Assembly (NCBI GenBank): GCA_014695175.1
Contig: JACJNV010000158.1
Span: 1 to 41,382, forward strand
Length of the DNA: 41,382 nucleotides
Direction of reading: 5' to 3'
From: Microcoleus sp. FACHB-DQ6
GTDB lineage: Bacteria > Cyanobacteriota > Cyanobacteriia > Cyanobacteriales > Microcoleaceae
Shown here: one piece after another, positions 8,079 through 37,908 of the stretch
Numbering within the stretch: the stretch's first letter is position 1
How the letters are laid out: each line of letters starts with the position of its first letter
The notes under the pieces: generated by a model
What the model saw: the letters and a program-made list of their open reading frames with translations, nothing else
What the model was told of the DNA's origin: nothing
Databases searched by the model: none
Position numbers and translations under genes: made by a program

Positions 8079-8143
8079 AACAGGCTGTCCGGCCTGTTCC
8101 ACAAAAGATAAATTTTCTTGTGGAACAGGCCGGACAGCCTGTT
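8079..8143. repeat. Perfect 26-bp palindrome (AACAGGC / GCCTGTT family)
   Basis: Arms 8079-8104 and 8118-8143 are exact reverse complements around a 13-base loop. The arm begins AACAGGCTGTCCGGCCTGTT and ends CCACAA. Related pieces occur at about 21252-21266 and 33773-33845, so this is a dispersed REP-like family. It also lies downstream of the membrane-protein gene, where the stem could end transcripts. No T-run follows. Confidence 0.85.
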
Positions 8144-14378: not shown

Positions 14379-16178
14379 TTGGCAATCATCAAAGTGGCGA
14401 TATTTAACAGGCCAAAATTTGAAAAACTCGCGGTTCATAAATCAAAAACATTAGCCTGGGCGATCGCATTTTTGAGCGGCATTTTGATGGCATTGACAAC
14501 CGCACCAGTAAATGCTTGGCTATTGGCTTGGGTAGCATTAGCTCCCCTGTGGGTTTTGGTTGTCAGTTATCAAAAGCCAAAAATAGAAGAACAAAAACAA
14601 AAATTTCTCTTTCTTCCTTCTTTCCTCAACATCCATCCGTTACATCCGTTACAGAATCCGTTGCCTAACTTCCTTCTTCCTTCACTCTGGGGAATTGGCT
14701 ATCACGGATTAGCTTTATCTTGGATTATGGGAATTCACCCGATGACTTGGTTGGGAGTTCCTTGGTGGCCGAGTTTGGCGATCGCACTTTTTTGCTGGGC
14801 CTTCATCACCCTGTGGGGAGCCGCCTTAGTTGCCGTTTGGGCGTGGTTATTTGTAATTCTCAACTCCCTAACTTTACCCGGCAAAAATCCTATTCTTATT
14901 CTTAACTCCCCCCCTTTACAAGGGGGGGCTGGGGGGGGTAGCTCTCATCTTAACTCCCCCCCTTTACAAGGGGTGGCTGGCGGGAGTAGCTCTAAATTTT
15001 CAGCATTAACTCGCGTTTTAATTGGCACAGCTTTGTGGTGTGCCTTAGAAAGTATTTGGAGTACAGGTTCGCTGTGGTGGACATCCCTATCATATACGCA
15101 AAGCCCGCACAATTTAGCCATATTGCACCTCGGTCAACTCTCCGGGCCCAGCGCAGTAACAGCCGCTCTTGTAGCAGTAAATGGCTTAATCGCCGAAGCT
15201 TTTATTGAAGGAAGAAGGAAGAAGGAAGAAGGAAGAAGGAAGAATTGGGTTGCTTATATTTTGCCTGCGAGTTTGTGTTTAGTTTTGCATATTGTAGGAT
15301 GGAGCTTATACAACCGCCCTTTGAATCAAGAAGCTGCAACTGCTTTAAAAATTGGCATTATTCAAGGCAACATTCCTAACGAGATTAAGTTTGATTCAGG
15401 GGGTTGGGGGCGCGCTTTGGAAGGTTACACCACTGGATACAAACAGTTAGCAGACAGAAAAGTCGATGCTGTGTTAATTCCAGAGACGGCTTTGCCTTTT
15501 ATCTGGACAAACGAGTATCAACGTTCTACTCTTTCCTTTTATCAAGCTATTCTCGAACGCGGCGTTGTGGCTTGGGTTGGAGGATTTGGACAGCAAGAGA
15601 ATAGTATCACTAACAGCTTATTGGCGATCGATCGCACTGGAGAAATTCTCGGCCGCTACGATAAACTAAAGCTAGTGCCTTTAGGCGAATATATCCCTTT
15701 TTACGAAATCTTAGGCGGGATTATTAATCGGCTTTCTCCCTTAGATGCTCATTTAGTAGCCGGCAATTCTAAACAATTGTTTGATACGCCGTTTGGCCGC
15801 GCCATTGTAGGAATTTGTTACGATTCGGCGTTTGCTGAAATTTTCCGAGATCAGGCGGCGAAGGGAGGCGAATTTATGCTCACAGCTTCCAACAATGCCC
15901 ATTACAAACCGCCAATGTTGGATCAACATCACGCTTTAGATGTGATGCGGGCAATTGAGACGGATAGATGGGCAGTTATCGCAACTAATACGGGTTACTC
16001 TGCTTTTGTAAATCCTCGCGGCGAGACGGTTTGGAAGTCTGGAATTAATACCTATGAAGTCCGAGATGCTACTATTTATCGGCGCCAAACTCGGACTTTG
16101 TACGTGCGCTGGGGAGATTGGCTGACGCCTTTATTGTTAGTATTGGCTGGGTTAATGCGGTTTATTGTTAAAAATTAA
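14379..16178 (+). CDS. lnt: Apolipoprotein N-acyltransferase with three repeat-derived inserts
   Basis: Lnt adds the third acyl chain to the N-terminal Cys of lipoproteins at the outer face of the plasma membrane. The C-terminal nitrilase domain has the catalytic triad: Glu369 (LIPETALPF), Lys429 (YDKLKLVPLGEYIPF) and Cys480 (VGICYDSAF). The N-terminal half is a membrane bundle. At 599 aa it is about 80 residues longer than usual, and the excess sits in three blocks that match dispersed repeats. These are about residues 68-104 ([13 protein letters not shown]), 171-205 (two LNSPPLQG units) and 276-289 (EGRRKKEEGRRK). The frame is unbroken and the triad intact, so the gene looks functional. The start is TTG 14379, with GTG 14394 as an alternative. 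Confidence 0.95.
   Translation: MAIIKVAIFNRPKFEKLAVHKSKTLAWAIAFLSGILMALTTAPVNAWLLAWVALAPLWVLVVSYQKPKIEEQKQKFLFLPSFLNIHPLHPLQNPLPNFLLPSLWGIGYHGLALSWIMGIHPMTWLGVPWWPSLAIALFCWAFITLWGAALVAVWAWLFVILNSLTLPGKNPILILNSPPLQGGAGGGSSHLNSPPLQGVAGGSSSKFSALTRVLIGTALWCALESIWSTGSLWWTSLSYTQSPHNLAILHLGQLSGPSAVTAALVAVNGLIAEAFIEGRRKKEEGRRKNWVAYILPASLCLVLHIVGWSLYNRPLNQEAATALKIGIIQGNIPNEIKFDSGGWGRALEGYTTGYKQLADRKVDAVLIPETALPFIWTNEYQRSTLSFYQAILERGVVAWVGGFGQQENSITNSLLAIDRTGEILGRYDKLKLVPLGEYIPFYEILGGIINRLSPLDAHLVAGNSKQLFDTPFGRAIVGICYDSAFAEIFRDQAAKGGEFMLTASNNAHYKPPMLDQHHALDVMRAIETDRWAVIATNTGYSAFVNPRGETVWKSGINTYEVRDATIYRRQTRTLYVRWGDWLTPLLLVLAGLMRFIVKN
14600..14692 (+). repeat. CATCCGTTA-unit element inside lnt
   Basis: A TTTCTCTTTCTTCCTTC-type lead, the units CATCCGTTA CATCCGTTA, and the tail CAGAATCCGTTGCC-AACTTCC-TTCTTCC sit in frame within lnt. 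They encode LFLPSF, then [17 protein letters not shown]. The intergenic copy at 12090-12224 encodes the same peptide in its open frame. Confidence 0.92.
14896..14992 (+). repeat. Two tandem G-run palindrome units inside lnt
   Basis: Two copies of about 50 bp, each AACTCCCCCCCTTTACAAGG followed by a G-rich run and AGTAGCTCT or GGTAGCTCT, lie head to tail. They encode LNSPPLQGGAGGGSSH and LNSPPLQGVAGGSSS. The CCCCCTTTACAAGGGGG core is the palindrome also found in aroE and in the split PIN gene. Confidence 0.9.
15208..15243 (+). repeat. GAAGGAAGAAG tract inside lnt
   Basis: A purine tract of GAAGAAGGAAGAAG-type units, the complement of the TTCTTCC leads seen beside the other elements, encodes EGRRKKEEGRRK. 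It lies in a cytosolic or lumenal loop before a membrane helix. Confidence 0.8.
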
Positions 16179-21171: not shown

Positions 21172-21425
21172 ATCCATTTAAAATTTTAGATTAGTCTGGC
21201 AGATCCCTGGGGACTACTAACATCTTGCGCCCTTCTTCAGAACTGGCTTTTGGGCCTGTTCCACAAAGAGTGAATTTTATTGTGGGGTGGGTATCATATC
21301 CTGCCCGCGCGTAAAAAGCCTGATGCTCCCCCTCTCCCCCCTCTCCCTCGTCTGTCACTCCCCCAGCTATGCTAAACTCACAGTTAAAGTGTCTGTAAAC
21401 TTTACTCAAACTACAAGCAAAATTT

Positions 21426-22512: not shown

Positions 22513-23490
22513 TTAGTCTAGACCTAAATGCTGTCGCAAGGCTTGGCGCATCACATCGACTGGGACGGATTCTTTATCCAGCCAAATTTTTAAGGCGGCT
22601 GCTCCTTGTTGAACTAGCATTTCGAGTCCGTCAATAGCTCGCGCTCCCCGAAGCTGTGCATCTTTGAGAAACTGCGTAGGATTAGGGGTGTAAATTAAAT
22701 CATAGACGATCGCACCTGCTGAAATTCGATCGATCGCACCCTCGGCAACCGGCGACTTTTCCCCCTGCGGATACATCCCCACAGGCGTCGTGTTCACCAG
22801 CAAATCTGCCTGCGAGATTAACATTGACAAATTCTCCCAAGTATGCACCTGCAAATTCTGCACCGGCATCGGAGAATTGACCCAACTCTGCTGAAATTCC
22901 GCTAAATTTTGTTCGCTGCGGCCGACAACGTGAATCTCTGCACATCCCAATTGAGCGCATCCAGCCACAACAGCTCTCGCCGCCCCGCCATTCCCCAAAA
23001 TTACCGCTACTTTCTGACTCCAATCGGAACCCCCCCTAACCCCCCCTTGGTAAGGGGGGGGACAGGATTCGACAGCCGTATTGCCCCTTTCTAAGGGAGA
23101 AATTGAGTCTTTAGCCTCCCCTTGGTAAGGGGGGGTTGGGGGGGTTTGCAGCGGCGCGAGAAAGCCTTCAACGTCAGTATTTGTGCCGCACCAACCTTTG
23201 TCAGTCAGGTATACGGTATTGACTGCGCCGATCGCTCGGGCGATCGGGGAAACTTCCGACAACAGCGGTAGGATTGCTTGTTTGTGGGGAATCGTGATGC
23301 TAAATCCCCGAACTCCGATCGCCGCAAATCCTGCAAGAGCAGCTTTTAAATCCCCTGGTTTTACCGGAAACGGCAGGTAAACAAAATCGACTCCCAAGTG
23401 GGAAATAGCAGCATTGTGCATCGCCGGCGACAGGGAATGTTCGACGGGATGGCCAATTACTCCCAACAGTTTAGTAGTGCCTTTAATCAT
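22513..23490 (-). CDS. aroE: Shikimate dehydrogenase with 40-residue repeat-derived insert
   Basis: AroE reduces 3-dehydroshikimate to shikimate with NADPH in aromatic amino-acid synthesis. The substrate-binding start GVIGHPVEHSLSPAMHNAA, catalytic Lys70 (SITIPHK), Asp106 (GTNTDVEGF) and the NADP-binding loop GNGGAARA (167-174) are all present. At 325 aa it is about 40 residues longer than usual. The excess lies between FLAPLQ and WSQKVAVILGNGG (about residues 115-157) and reads as two PPYQG-type units, encoded by G-run palindromes. The insert falls between the catalytic and nucleotide-binding domains, where a loop can be tolerated. It lies downstream of a P-loop ATPase on the same strand. 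Confidence 0.96.
   Translation of the reverse strand: MIKGTTKLLGVIGHPVEHSLSPAMHNAAISHLGVDFVYLPFPVKPGDLKAALAGFAAIGVRGFSITIPHKQAILPLLSEVSPIARAIGAVNTVYLTDKGWCGTNTDVEGFLAPLQTPPTPPYQGEAKDSISPLERGNTAVESCPPPYQGGVRGGSDWSQKVAVILGNGGAARAVVAGCAQLGCAEIHVVGRSEQNLAEFQQSWVNSPMPVQNLQVHTWENLSMLISQADLLVNTTPVGMYPQGEKSPVAEGAIDRISAGAIVYDLIYTPNPTQFLKDAQLRGARAIDGLEMLVQQGAAALKIWLDKESVPVDVMRQALRQHLGLD
23023..23148 (-). repeat. Pair of G-run palindromes inside aroE
   Basis: Two CCCCCCTTGGTAAGGGGGG palindromes, at about 23044-23062 and 23118-23136, surround about 55 bp with a third, diverged unit (CCCCTTTCTAAGGGA). The whole block is in frame with aroE and encodes the Pro/Gly-rich insert. The same family occurs in lnt and the split PIN gene. 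Confidence 0.9.
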
Positions 23491-32535: not shown

Positions 32536-33768
32536 ATGGATACTACGCCTGATATCAGTGCTGCCGTGCGACGGCTTTACGATACTTTCCCTTTCCCGCC
32601 CGATCCTTTGTCAGATGAACCGCCCCCTGGGTACAACTGGCGCTGGAGTTGGCCTGATGCTTACAATTTTTGCACTGGCCAAAAGCCGCCAAAACTGGAT
32701 ATTCGGATTTTAGATGCTGGCTGCGGCACTGGTTCGAGCACCGATTATCTGATTCACCTCAATCCTGAAGCTTCGGTGACGGCGATCGACCTGAGTGAAG
32801 GTGCTTTGAAAGTAGCACAAGAACGGTGTAGGCGATCCGGAGCGCGCGAAGCTGATTTCCGCCACCTCAGCCTGTACGATGCCGCCGAGTTAGAGGGCGA
32901 GTTTGATTTGATCAACTGCGTGGGCGTGCTGCACCACTTACCCGATCCGATCCGGGGCATTCAAGCACTGGCGGCGAAGTTGGCGGAGGGCGGTTTGATG
33001 CACATTTTTGTGTATGCTGAGCTCGGACGCTGGGAAATTCAACTCATGCAAAGGGCGATCGGGCTTCTCCAAGGCCCGAAAAAAGGTGACTATCCCGATG
33101 GTGTGAAAGTCGGCCGTCAAATCTTTGCTTCTTTACCAGAAAACAACCGTCTTGTCAAGTACGAAAAGCAGCGGTGGGCAGCAGAAAATCAGCGGGACGA
33201 ATGTTTTGCTGATATGTACGTTCACCCGCAGGAAATTGACTACAATATCGAGACTTTGTTCGAGTTAATTGACGCTTCGGGATTGGAATTTATCGGTTTT
33301 TCAAATCCGGGATATTGGCAGTTAGAAAGACTTTTGGGGAAAGCGCCGGAATTGATAGAAAGAGCTCAGGGTTTGACGGAACGGGAGCTTTATCGATTAA
33401 TTGAATTGTTGGATACGGAAATCACTCATTACGAGTTTTTCTTGGGCAAAAAGCCTGTTAATAAAATTGATTGGTCGGACGATAAGACACTTTTGGCGGC
33501 AATTCCAGAGTTGAGTGGTTGTATGCACGGTTGGCCTAGTCAACAAGTGTTTGATTGCAACTACCAATTGGTCAATTTGTCAAGTGCTGAATTTGAGTTT
33601 TTACAAGGTTGTGTACCCCCCCCAGACAGGGCGGGCACGGGGGCACCGCCCCTACAAGGTGGTGGGAAGACTGTTGGGGAGATTTTAGGGAATGTGGAGA
33701 TGGGATTGGATGAAGTGCGATCGATCTTATCAAAACAGCTAATTTTGCTAACACCCGGTAAAATCTAA
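32536..33768 (+). CDS. Class I SAM-dependent methyltransferase with repeat-derived insert
   Basis: A 410-aa protein. Motif I LDAGCGTG lies at 59-66, motif II ASVTAIDLSEGALKVA follows, then DLINCVGVLHHLPDP as motif IV/post-motif. The C-terminal 200 residues are a family-specific helical extension with a winged-helix-like end (KTVGEILGNVEMGLDEVRSI). The substrate is unknown. Near residues 359-377, VPPPDRAGTGAPPLQGGG is encoded by a GGGGCGGTGCCCCC-type repeat. It sits where the final domain expects a short acidic link before KTVGEIL. The frame is intact. The ATG is preceded by CACCT with no clear ribosome site. The gene is divergent from apcE. Confidence 0.85.
   Translation: MDTTPDISAAVRRLYDTFPFPPDPLSDEPPPGYNWRWSWPDAYNFCTGQKPPKLDIRILDAGCGTGSSTDYLIHLNPEASVTAIDLSEGALKVAQERCRRSGAREADFRHLSLYDAAELEGEFDLINCVGVLHHLPDPIRGIQALAAKLAEGGLMHIFVYAELGRWEIQLMQRAIGLLQGPKKGDYPDGVKVGRQIFASLPENNRLVKYEKQRWAAENQRDECFADMYVHPQEIDYNIETLFELIDASGLEFIGFSNPGYWQLERLLGKAPELIERAQGLTERELYRLIELLDTEITHYEFFLGKKPVNKIDWSDDKTLLAAIPELSGCMHGWPSQQVFDCNYQLVNLSSAEFEFLQGCVPPPDRAGTGAPPLQGGGKTVGEILGNVEMGLDEVRSILSKQLILLTPGKI
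33614..33663 (-). repeat. GGGGCGGTGCCCCC element inside the methyltransferase gene
   Basis: CCCCCCCCAGACAGGGCGGG is followed by CACGGGGGCACCGCCCCTAC. The second part is the exact reverse complement of the recJ insert core at 18824-18858. Confidence 0.88.
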
Positions 33769-33772
33769 GGGC

Positions 33773-33845
33773 GGGCAAGATGCTTAACTCCTACTCCCCA
33801 CAATCAAATTAGCTTTTTGTGGAACAGGCATCTTGCCTGTTCTTT
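33773..33845. repeat. REP-like AACAGGCATCTTGCCTGTT unit after the methyltransferase
   Basis: GGCAAGATGC at about 33775 is inverted at 33829 as GCATCTTGCC, within AACAGGCATCTTGCCTGTT. Together with TTTTTGTGGAACAGGC it matches the palindrome family at 8079-8143. Confidence 0.8.
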
Positions 33846-35721: not shown

Positions 35722-37908
35722 GTCCCCACTCGCTGGGGAAACTAATTGAATGGAAACAACAGATGGCTAGAATCTTGTAATTGTCGCCATACTTGCGTCC
35801 CCACTCGCTGGGGAAACTAATTGAATGGAAACTTTTTAAGCTTTTGACAGGCGCGATTAATAGGTTCGTCCATATCGGTGCCAAGTCCCCACTCGCTGGG
35901 GAAACTAATTGAATGGAAACGAGCGAGTTATCAATGAGAAGCATTGCATAGTATTTGCGTCTCGTCCCCACTCGCTGGGGAAACTAATTGAATGGAAACG
36001 TGAAAGTTTCTTTTAAGATACCTTTAATGGTTTCGTCCCCACTCGCTGGGGAAACTAATTGAATGGAAACTGAAGATCGTGCTGTTGATCGTAACACCCA
36101 GCCATGTTGGTTCCGCAAGTCCCCACTCGCTGGGGAAACTAATTGAATGGAAACATTTTCCTCTGTAAGAAGCGCAACCAGTTTCGCTTGTCCCCACTCG
36201 CTGGGGAAACTAATTGAATGGAAACAGCACCATAGCTTCAGCTTCTTCTAGCTCATCTATTTCGGCAGTCCCCACTCGCTGGGGAAACTAATTGAATGGA
36301 AACGATGTGTTCTTCCATCCAGTCGCTCACCAGATTTCCTGTCCCCACTCGCTGGGGAAACTAATTGAATGGAAACGGAAAAACTATTGATTTTTTTTGA
36401 GAGACAAACGATGTCCCCACTCGCTGGGGAAACTAATTGAATGGAAACAATTCCGGTACGGCCATTTTATTGATTATCCCCGCATAATTCCGGTCCCCAC
36501 TCGCTGGGGAAACTAATTGAATGGAAACTTGAGAAGTAACTTTAGTTCGTAATCCTCAAAACTGAGTCCCCACTCGCTGGGGAAACTAATTGAATGGAAA
36601 CACCGTTGCACCTGTTTGGTTTGCTCCTTGAATAACGTCCCCACTCGCTGGGGAAACTAATTGAATGGAAACTCAATAATTTCGACTTTCGTCTTCGCGG
36701 ATAAATTGTGTCCCCACTCCCTGGGGAAACTAATTGACTGGAAACGATCAATCCGAAAATCAATATCTGAATCCTTAAGTTCCCACTCGCTGGGGAAACT
36801 AATTGAATGGAAACACATCTGACGGACTCGGAAACTTGGCAAGATATTTGTGAATAATCTCGTCCTGGTTCCCACTCGCTGGGGAAACTAATTGAATGGA
36901 AACACCATTTCAACTCTTTGTGTGCTGCATAATCAGATGCGTCCCCACTCGCTGGGGAAACTAATTGAATGGAAACGAGCCAAAATTAGCATCTTGAACC
37001 TCATAAATTCCATCTTCTGTCCCCACTCGCTGGGGAAACTAACTGAATGGAAACACCCAATTTAAGACAGATGGTAGATTATGACGGATGACGGATGTCC
37101 CCACTCGCTGGGGAAACTAATTGAATGGAAACCTAACCTTCTCTACTTCAGTGCTAGGATTCACCAACACTTTGTCCCCACTCGCTGGGGAAACTAATTG
37201 AATGGAAACACTTTTGCTAACTCATAGAAACCGTAGTATTGATCTCGTCCCCACTCGCTGGGGAAACTAATTGAATGGAAACTCGGAGATTAAACGCGCT
37301 CGATGGCGTTTAACTTGTCCCCACTCGCTGGGGAAACTAATTGAATGGAAACTTAAGCTGTTTTTGTCTCTCGAATAAGTTGATATCAAAAGCCGACAGT
37401 CCCCACTCACTGGGGAAACTGATTGAATGGAAACCAAATCAATCGCTTTTTTCCGTAACGGATCTTTTTTCCGGTCCCCACTCGTTGGGGAAACTAATTG
37501 AATGGAAACTCGATTGTCCGAGATACACATTATCAGAGTCAGTGAGCCCCCACTCGCTGGGGAAACTAATTGAATGGAAACATCCAAGTCAGGAACATCC
37601 CGAATAGTCTTTGCCCGACTCCTGAGTCGTCCCCAATCGCTGGGGAAACTAATTGAATGGAAACATTGTGGACAAAATGCGATCGTCAAAATTAGGCTAG
37701 CGCTAAGTCCCCACTCGCTGGGGAAACTAATTGAATGGAAACAAATCACTTCCCTTGATTGCGTTACCCTCATCGTTGAGAAAATTGAGTCCCCACTCGC
37801 TGGGGAAACTAATTGAATGGAAACTCTGCTAGTTTCTGCAATTGCCCGATCGAGAATTTCCCGGTAATTTTAGTCCCCACTCGCTGGGGAAACTAATTGA
37901 ATGGAAAC
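35722..37908 (+). CRISPR. CRISPR array, 29 repeats of 36 nt and 28 spacers, no cas genes in window
   Basis: The repeat begins GTCCCCACTCGCTGGGG and ends AAACTAATTGAATGGAAAC (36 nt). Repeats start at 35722, 35797, 35885, 35964, 36035, 36119, 36190, 36268, 36341, 36413, 36493, 36566, 36637, 36710, 36779, 36868, 36941, 37019, 37097, 37174, 37247, 37317, 37399, 37474, 37546, 37629, 37707, 37789 and 37873. Spacers run from 33 to 53 nt, a wide range like that of type III and I-D arrays. Repeats at 36710, 36779, 36868, 37019, 37399, 37474, 37546 and 37629 carry point changes; the others, including the last, match. The GAAAC end gives plus-strand transcription from the leader at lower coordinates. 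The short internal frames (for example FHSISFPSEWG) are repeat translation, not genes. Confidence 0.99.

Follow-up and report, generated by a model that had tools for sequence, protein, structure and literature searches.

The apolipoprotein N-acyltransferase gene (lnt) of Microcoleus sp. FACHB-DQ6 carries short genomic repeats in frame at three places in its coding sequence, and its relatives swap these repeats for others within the same three loops of the enzyme. The feature is real and unusual, and purifying selection on a steady supply of repeats is a better reading of it than guided insertion. The pattern is probably best explained by a repeat supply that is filtered by purifying selection at three tolerant Lnt loops. 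Reuse of the same three loops of one enzyme across filamentous cyanobacteria looks new; our literature searches, which covered open-licence papers, recognised no paper on repeats in Lnt. The window, by which we mean the whole stretch of DNA that was analyzed, is contig JACJNV010000158.1 (41,382 nt) and belongs to the Microcoleus group. The features of its lnt are as follows.

14379 to 16178, forward strand: lnt, apolipoprotein N-acyltransferase, an intact ORF of 599 aa with a TTG start as called
14460 to 14467, forward strand: site 0 (aa ~28-30), an empty HIP1 octamer, GCGATCGC
14610 to 14683, forward strand: block A in loop TM2-3 (aa 78-102), TTCTTCC-type heptamers with a nonamer element nested inside
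14630 to 14673, forward strand: the nonamer element within block A, (CATCCGTTA)n then AATCCGTTGCCTAACTTCC (TRF 14634-14653)
14900 to 14995, forward strand: block B in loop TM4-5 (aa 174-206), a G-run palindrome in two 48-bp tandem copies, peptide LNSPPLQGGAGGGSSH
15207 to 15244, forward strand: block C in loop TM6-7 (aa 277-289), 5.4 perfect GAAGGAA heptamers, peptide EGRRKKEEGRRKN

The identity of this ORF as lnt, which had been assigned without database searches, was borne out. It matches TIGR00546 (3.2e-74; 250.5 bits against a cut-off of 132.9) and the CN_hydrolase and LNT_N domains. A Foldseek search with the Lnt model returned Lnt in all of the top 24 matches, the best being E. coli Lnt, and the model compares with E. 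coli Lnt 5n6l_A at a TM-score of 0.83 by target length. E369, K429 and C480, which we take to be the catalytic triad (Glu, Lys, Cys), are invariant in both a 24-row and an 85-row Lnt alignment, so the initial annotation was right to call the triad intact.

That annotation described the insertions as three independent repeat families. All three blocks are present and in frame, but the lnt of the window holds two repeat systems, not three, since blocks A (TTCTTCC in the sense direction) and C (GAAGGAA) draw on a single heptamer family whose members are complementary, lying on opposite strands, and the nonamer is nested within the heptamer tract. The nonamer and the heptamer usually go together, given that a TTCTTCC-type unit lies close by in 15 of 17 distinct nonamer contexts, drawn from 30 of the 70 genome matches to the nonamer 18-mer plus the window; the tail AATC(C/T)GTTGC is found in all 17. 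Elsewhere in the window, positions 2693-2837 hold about two tandem copies of a 68-bp unit composed of heptamer and nonamer, which resembles the element nested in block A. The repeats are indeed dispersed, as had been claimed: a backwards control of the nonamer 18-mer gave 0 matches against the 70, and G-run palindromes and heptamers recur at other places in the window. The array at 15207-15244 belongs among the heptameric tandem repeats. Its 21-mer has 178 genome matches and the backwards control 174, counted with overlaps, a control that is uninformative because the motif reads nearly alike backwards. Copy 1 of block B is built C7-TTTACAA-G7-CT-G8; its exact palindrome core has only 2 genome copies, and the family is recognizable only when the spacers are allowed to vary. 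Among other repeats, the window contains a CRISPR array at 35722-37908, whose 36-bp repeat (GTCCCCACTCGCTGGGGAAACTAATTGAATGGAAAC) occurs 29 times with mutations in a few copies, and, at 8079-8143, a perfect inverted repeat of 26 bp around a spacer of 13 bp, to which stretches near 21240-21287 and 33796-33829 are related.

The proposal that the blocks add about 80 residues, equal to the excess length of the protein, did not hold. Together they total 208 nt, or ~69 residues, and, measured against the shortest length that each segment has in 22 genus and near rows (aligned Lnts), the window Lnt has 16 extra residues in loop A, 38 in loop B and 0 in loop C. Block C therefore replaces sequence rather than adding to it.

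An AlphaFold model built from the 85-row alignment (mean pLDDT 84.3, pTM 0.87) replaced a 24-row model of pLDDT 50.9. It places block A between helices 55-62 and 96-118, with its last residues entering the latter, and block B between helices 129-163 and 209-227. Values of pLDDT below 50 were obtained at 75-82, 84-86 and 88-93 in the region of block A and at 169-178, 181-183 and 185-205 in that of block B, low confidence of the kind seen in disordered stretches. Block C coincides partly with the final part of helix 257-284 and with the turn leading into helix 290-311, and is modelled confidently as a structured, helical extension. The confident structure predicted for block C counts against the explanation that we prefer. 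The nitrilase domain of Lnt, which comes after the next helix, is periplasmic; together with the alternation of the helices, this places blocks A, B and C in what are probably three cytoplasmic loops.

Among 29 same-genus genomes, the lnt ORF is intact in 19, out of frame in three, cut in three and fragmented in one, while three are without a match. The cut genes end at contig ends (G027, G004 and G021), and the repeats may make lnt difficult to assemble. One genome (G002, 74% complete) has lnt in fragments plus a second copy at 61%, and in three genomes of 90-96% completeness (G013, G023 and G024) no match to the C-terminal part of lnt was found, which reflects either loss or an assembly gap. 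Alignment of close relatives, the check proposed for the insertions, supported them: protein ends aside, every length difference among the 19 intact Lnts falls at aa ~29 or within loop A, B or C. Turnover was observed, in that relatives swap repeats within the same loops. Peptide motifs assigned a loop-B state to 23 of 25 rows, with the G-palindrome in 15, a GTGILPV element in six, neither in two and both in none (0/23). A looser DNA scan that reached upstream of lnt also found the G-palindrome in G005 and G006 and missed it in G003 and G008. Of 25 rows, 10 have the nonamer element in loop C, where its orientation is reversed, and 4 of 22 have it in loop A. The fewest repeat-state changes on the lnt tree are 3 for loop A, 5 for B and 6 for C, on a tree that was built from lnt itself and has firm support on only 5 of its 23 inner branches. 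At site 0, G007 carries a 21-bp dispersed element inside the HIP1 octamer, in frame, that can be placed after HIP1 nucleotide 5 or 6 (equal to 3 or 2 on the other strand); a 20-mer of this element has 7 to 25 copies per genome in six genomes. At the same site, G003 carries ~24 bp of different sequence.

The reading frame is conserved throughout this turnover. Loop lengths are multiples of 3 in 62 of 65 instances and for 34 of 37 distinct lengths (p 1.4e-13 vs 1/3), and lnt is out of frame within a loop in three genomes (G018, G005 and G026). These counts support the earlier suggestion of selection for frame-compatible content. By inspection, loop-C lengths of the heptamer type without other elements are 84, 126, 147 and 168, with differences that are multiples of 21, the length of three heptamers. 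Loop A of G005 is one heptamer (7 bp) longer than that of its neighbor G025 (76 vs 69). Together these form the pattern that slippage plus purifying selection would leave. The tandem units of loop B measure 48, 39, 36 and 30 bp, likewise by inspection.

It is conceivable that lnt is a contingency locus, in which slippage of heptamers and G/C runs toggles the frame and thereby switches lipoprotein N-acylation on or off in part of the population. Heptamers and G7/G8 runs do lie within the ORF, the three out-of-frame genes are broken inside repeats, and the steps of 21 among loop-C lengths would fit such slippage. However, the proportion of in-frame loops is higher than free switching would leave, and assembly error may underlie the frame differences between strains, which concern 3 of 22 evaluable genus genomes. 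The change in G018 consists of shorter C and G runs, homopolymers in which a sequencing error is plausible, and G026, which differs in loop B, matches the metagenome bin L165. G018 and G020 are one-contig genomes, and since the breaks in lnt of the former and in the aroE-like gene of the latter (see below) both sit in G/C runs, sequencing error is possible for each. We consider a contingency locus unlikely. A slow contingency gene, in which a one- or two-unit change breaks the frame and filaments mix cells with and without N-acylated lipoproteins, is quite unlikely.

Beyond the genus, we compared 93 cyanobacterial Lnts, comprising the 22 genus and near rows and 71 others. In all 93, the segment TM3-4 is 60 aa long and the segment TM5-6 is 66 aa long, and the loops range from 9 to 55 (A), 6 to 82 (B) and 11 to 91 aa (C). 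A heptamer array was defined as a run of at least 10 at lag 7, that is, at least 17 bp. Dropped from the array counts were 24 loci judged duplicate, broken or cut (one, L157, was restored), six loci without an ORF by motif, rows shorter than 495 aa, and six genus rows in which the gene is broken or cut. Loops make up 17% of bases in the genus and near rows and 12% in the 71 others, and they contain 25 of 25 and 20 of 20 arrays, respectively; these 45 of 45 arrays are not independent, as they come from 27 Lnts (16 of the 22 and 11 of the 71) and broken tracts were counted more than once. The remaining 60 of the 71 lack arrays, which counts against the explanation that we prefer. With a looser cut (run of at least 8), 4 of 58 arrays lie outside loops. 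Codon shuffles within loops lead one to expect 0.08 heptamer arrays in the genus and near rows, against 23 seen, and 0.07 lag-7 arrays in the 71 rows, for which whole-gene shuffles gave 0.16. When lags of 4 to 15 were scanned (run of at least 11), lag 7 yielded 22 arrays in the genus and near rows and 18 in the others, lags 4-6, 8-13 and 15 yielded 0-5, and lag 14 echoed the lag-7 signal.

The repeats themselves are lineage-specific. Two Symploca Lnts have CAATTCC heptamers in loops A and C, and CAATTCC x3 has 4097 and 799 overlapping matches in two Symploca genomes and 0 in two Oscillatoria genomes. Two Oscillatoria Lnts have GGATTTT heptamers in loop B, and GGATTTT x3 has 147 and 65 matches in the Oscillatoria genomes and 4 and 0 in Symploca, where the backwards control matched 31 times in one of the genomes. 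Both units are thus abundant in the genomes whose Lnts carry them and scarce or missing in those of the other genus. One further Lnt (L177) has several heptamer units, and loop C of two others (L201 and L205) holds an inverted repeat of which one arm has 10 and 5 copies in their genomes. Lnt loops thus gather repeats of their own lineage. We therefore reject the possibility, raised at the outset as the one that would undo the insertion reading, that the repeats are conserved parts of Lnt: in other genera these peptides are mostly missing, and some Lnts there have different repeats in the same loops. The exceptions are kin repeats, for example in L180, whose loop C shows the heptamer type of the window, and in L029 and L175, with G-run peptides in their loop A.

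Within the samples taken, lnt is an outlier in repeat load. Outside the genus, it holds 21 arrays in 77.7 kb, compared with 1 in 108.3 kb of flanking coding DNA and 43 in 60.6 kb of intergenic DNA (27, 0.9 and 71 per 100 kb), or ~30 times the flanking coding density; the 1.4 kb just upstream of lnt starts (4 arrays) was excluded from both classes because the lnt start codon is unsure, and genes were called by a home-made finder that was trained on Microcoleus stretches and applied to other genera too. This density and a sample of the G020 genome (1.04 Mb, 724 called genes) led us to reject the view of lnt as an ordinary gene in this respect. In the G020 sample, one of four kinds of repeat is present in 18 genes and two kinds in 0, and repeats were found in 0 of 33 genes with at least six hydrophobic segments. 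G-palindromes lie in called genes in 8 of 18 cases, the highest share of six families, with some of these calls low-scoring; the corresponding figures are 4/23 for TTCTTCC heptamers, 1/7 for nonamers and 3/25 for GTGILPV, and, for the stop-containing heptamers, 1/57 for AATCTAA arrays and 1/3 for TTAGTTA. The contrast between G-palindromes and AATCTAA arrays favors the explanation that we prefer, and the TTAGTTA figure and the low-scoring calls weigh against it. Still, lnt is not the sole gene holding several repeats, as a 928-aa protein of G020 (L107, 4687-7470), presumably TPR-like, has three different heptamer units in frame. Two further genes of the window carry repeats.

22513 to 23490, reverse strand: aroE-like gene with two in-frame G-run palindromes
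32536 to 33768, forward strand: methyltransferase-like gene with a repeat block that varies among 5 genomes

Both names are presumptive, assigned from the sequence. Repeat copy number and frame of the aroE-like gene vary among five genomes: in G012 one palindrome copy is present and the gene is 75 bp shorter and in frame, and in G020 a single missing G leaves it out of frame. In this the gene resembles lnt. The methyltransferase-like gene of G011 also carries the 21-bp element found at site 0.

The high repeat load could mean that the insert peptides are functional, with the loops needing disordered or charged cytoplasmic extensions for which repeats are a handy source. In favor of this, heptamer arrays are present in 16 of the 22 genus and near rows, and the array density of lnt far exceeds that of other coding DNA. 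The peptides are, however, chemically unlike one another (EGRRKKEE, NSPPLQGGAGG, SGTGILPVI, SSATDCVTDVTD and NSQFPIPN), and loops as short as 9, 6 and 11 aa exist, so that we find a functional role doubtful. A site-directed, frame-favoring insertion mechanism acting on lnt, offered in the initial annotation beside selection, might account for the repeated use of the same loops and for the site-0 element within the HIP1 octamer, but we reject it as very improbable, given that three same-genus lnt genes and the aroE-like gene of G020 are out of frame, that 7 bp, the length of the main unit, is not divisible by 3, that intact genes read the G-palindrome in different frames (NSPPLQGG in G000, TPPLYKGG in G022) and that the repeats change from genus to genus.

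Under the reading that we prefer, a repeat supply filtered by purifying selection, filamentous cyanobacteria would keep producing short repeats, including heptamer arrays, nonamer and palindromic elements, and small HIP1-embedded elements, and these would appear in Lnt loops just as in intergenic DNA. Added or changed peptide in the three cytoplasmic loops would do little harm, since catalysis takes place in the membrane and periplasmic parts. Once in the loops, repeats would expand or contract through slippage and through exchange between copies; outcomes that are free of stops and preserve the frame would survive, and others would be removed or seen as broken genes. Translation of the loop peptides, their near neutrality and the route by which the elements get in are all inferred here. 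Tolerance alone may fail to explain why lnt stands out: tolerant loops must exist in other membrane proteins too, and none of the 33 sampled genes with at least six hydrophobic segments has a repeat. As one enzyme with lineage-specific repeats in the same three loops, Lnt offers a natural experiment in how genomic repeats become protein. It allows loop tolerance and repeat turnover in coding DNA to be measured, and allows testing whether in-frame repeat insertion needs a special mechanism.

Heptameric tandem repeats of cyanobacteria go by the name STRR. According to PMC4692102, heptamers are over-represented in intergenic regions of Nostoc and a G-rich heptamer is under-represented in coding regions. 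The lnt arrays share the 7-bp units and the many copies of such repeats; what sets them apart is their place within a conserved gene, where their density comes closer to that of intergenic DNA. Elhai et al. 2008 reportedly described small dispersed repeats (SDR) of ~20-25 bp in Nostoc, some within heptamer arrays. One of these, SDR5, sits between nucleotides 3 and 4 of HIP1, according to PMC4390886; of the two equal placements of the 21-bp insert at site 0 of G007, one agrees with that position on one strand. The G-palindromes and nonamer arrays of the window are of a build other than that of the SDR.

The initial annotation likened the insertions to Rickettsia palindromic elements, which the review PMC10969869 gives as ~150 bp. 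The likeness extends to behavior, as repeat peptides are fused in frame into unrelated housekeeping genes in Rickettsia and in-frame repeats occur here in lnt, the aroE-like gene and other called genes. It does not extend to element type: the units here are 7-48 bp, and unrelated kinds occur in one gene. Intrastrand triplex motifs reach high numbers in some cyanobacteria and are linked to instability in PMC4666352. Block B, a C-run, a G-run and a second G-run, resembles them by sequence; its in-frame use as coding DNA is a side that the passages of PMC4666352 on such motifs do not treat. The amino-acid tandem repeats of Borgs are similar in being DNA repeats in ORFs, often giving rise to disordered regions and sometimes several per ORF; their units within ORFs are all divisible by three (PMC9879509). 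The main unit in loops A and C, at 7 bp, departs from this rule, whereas the loop-B units given above fit it, by inspection.
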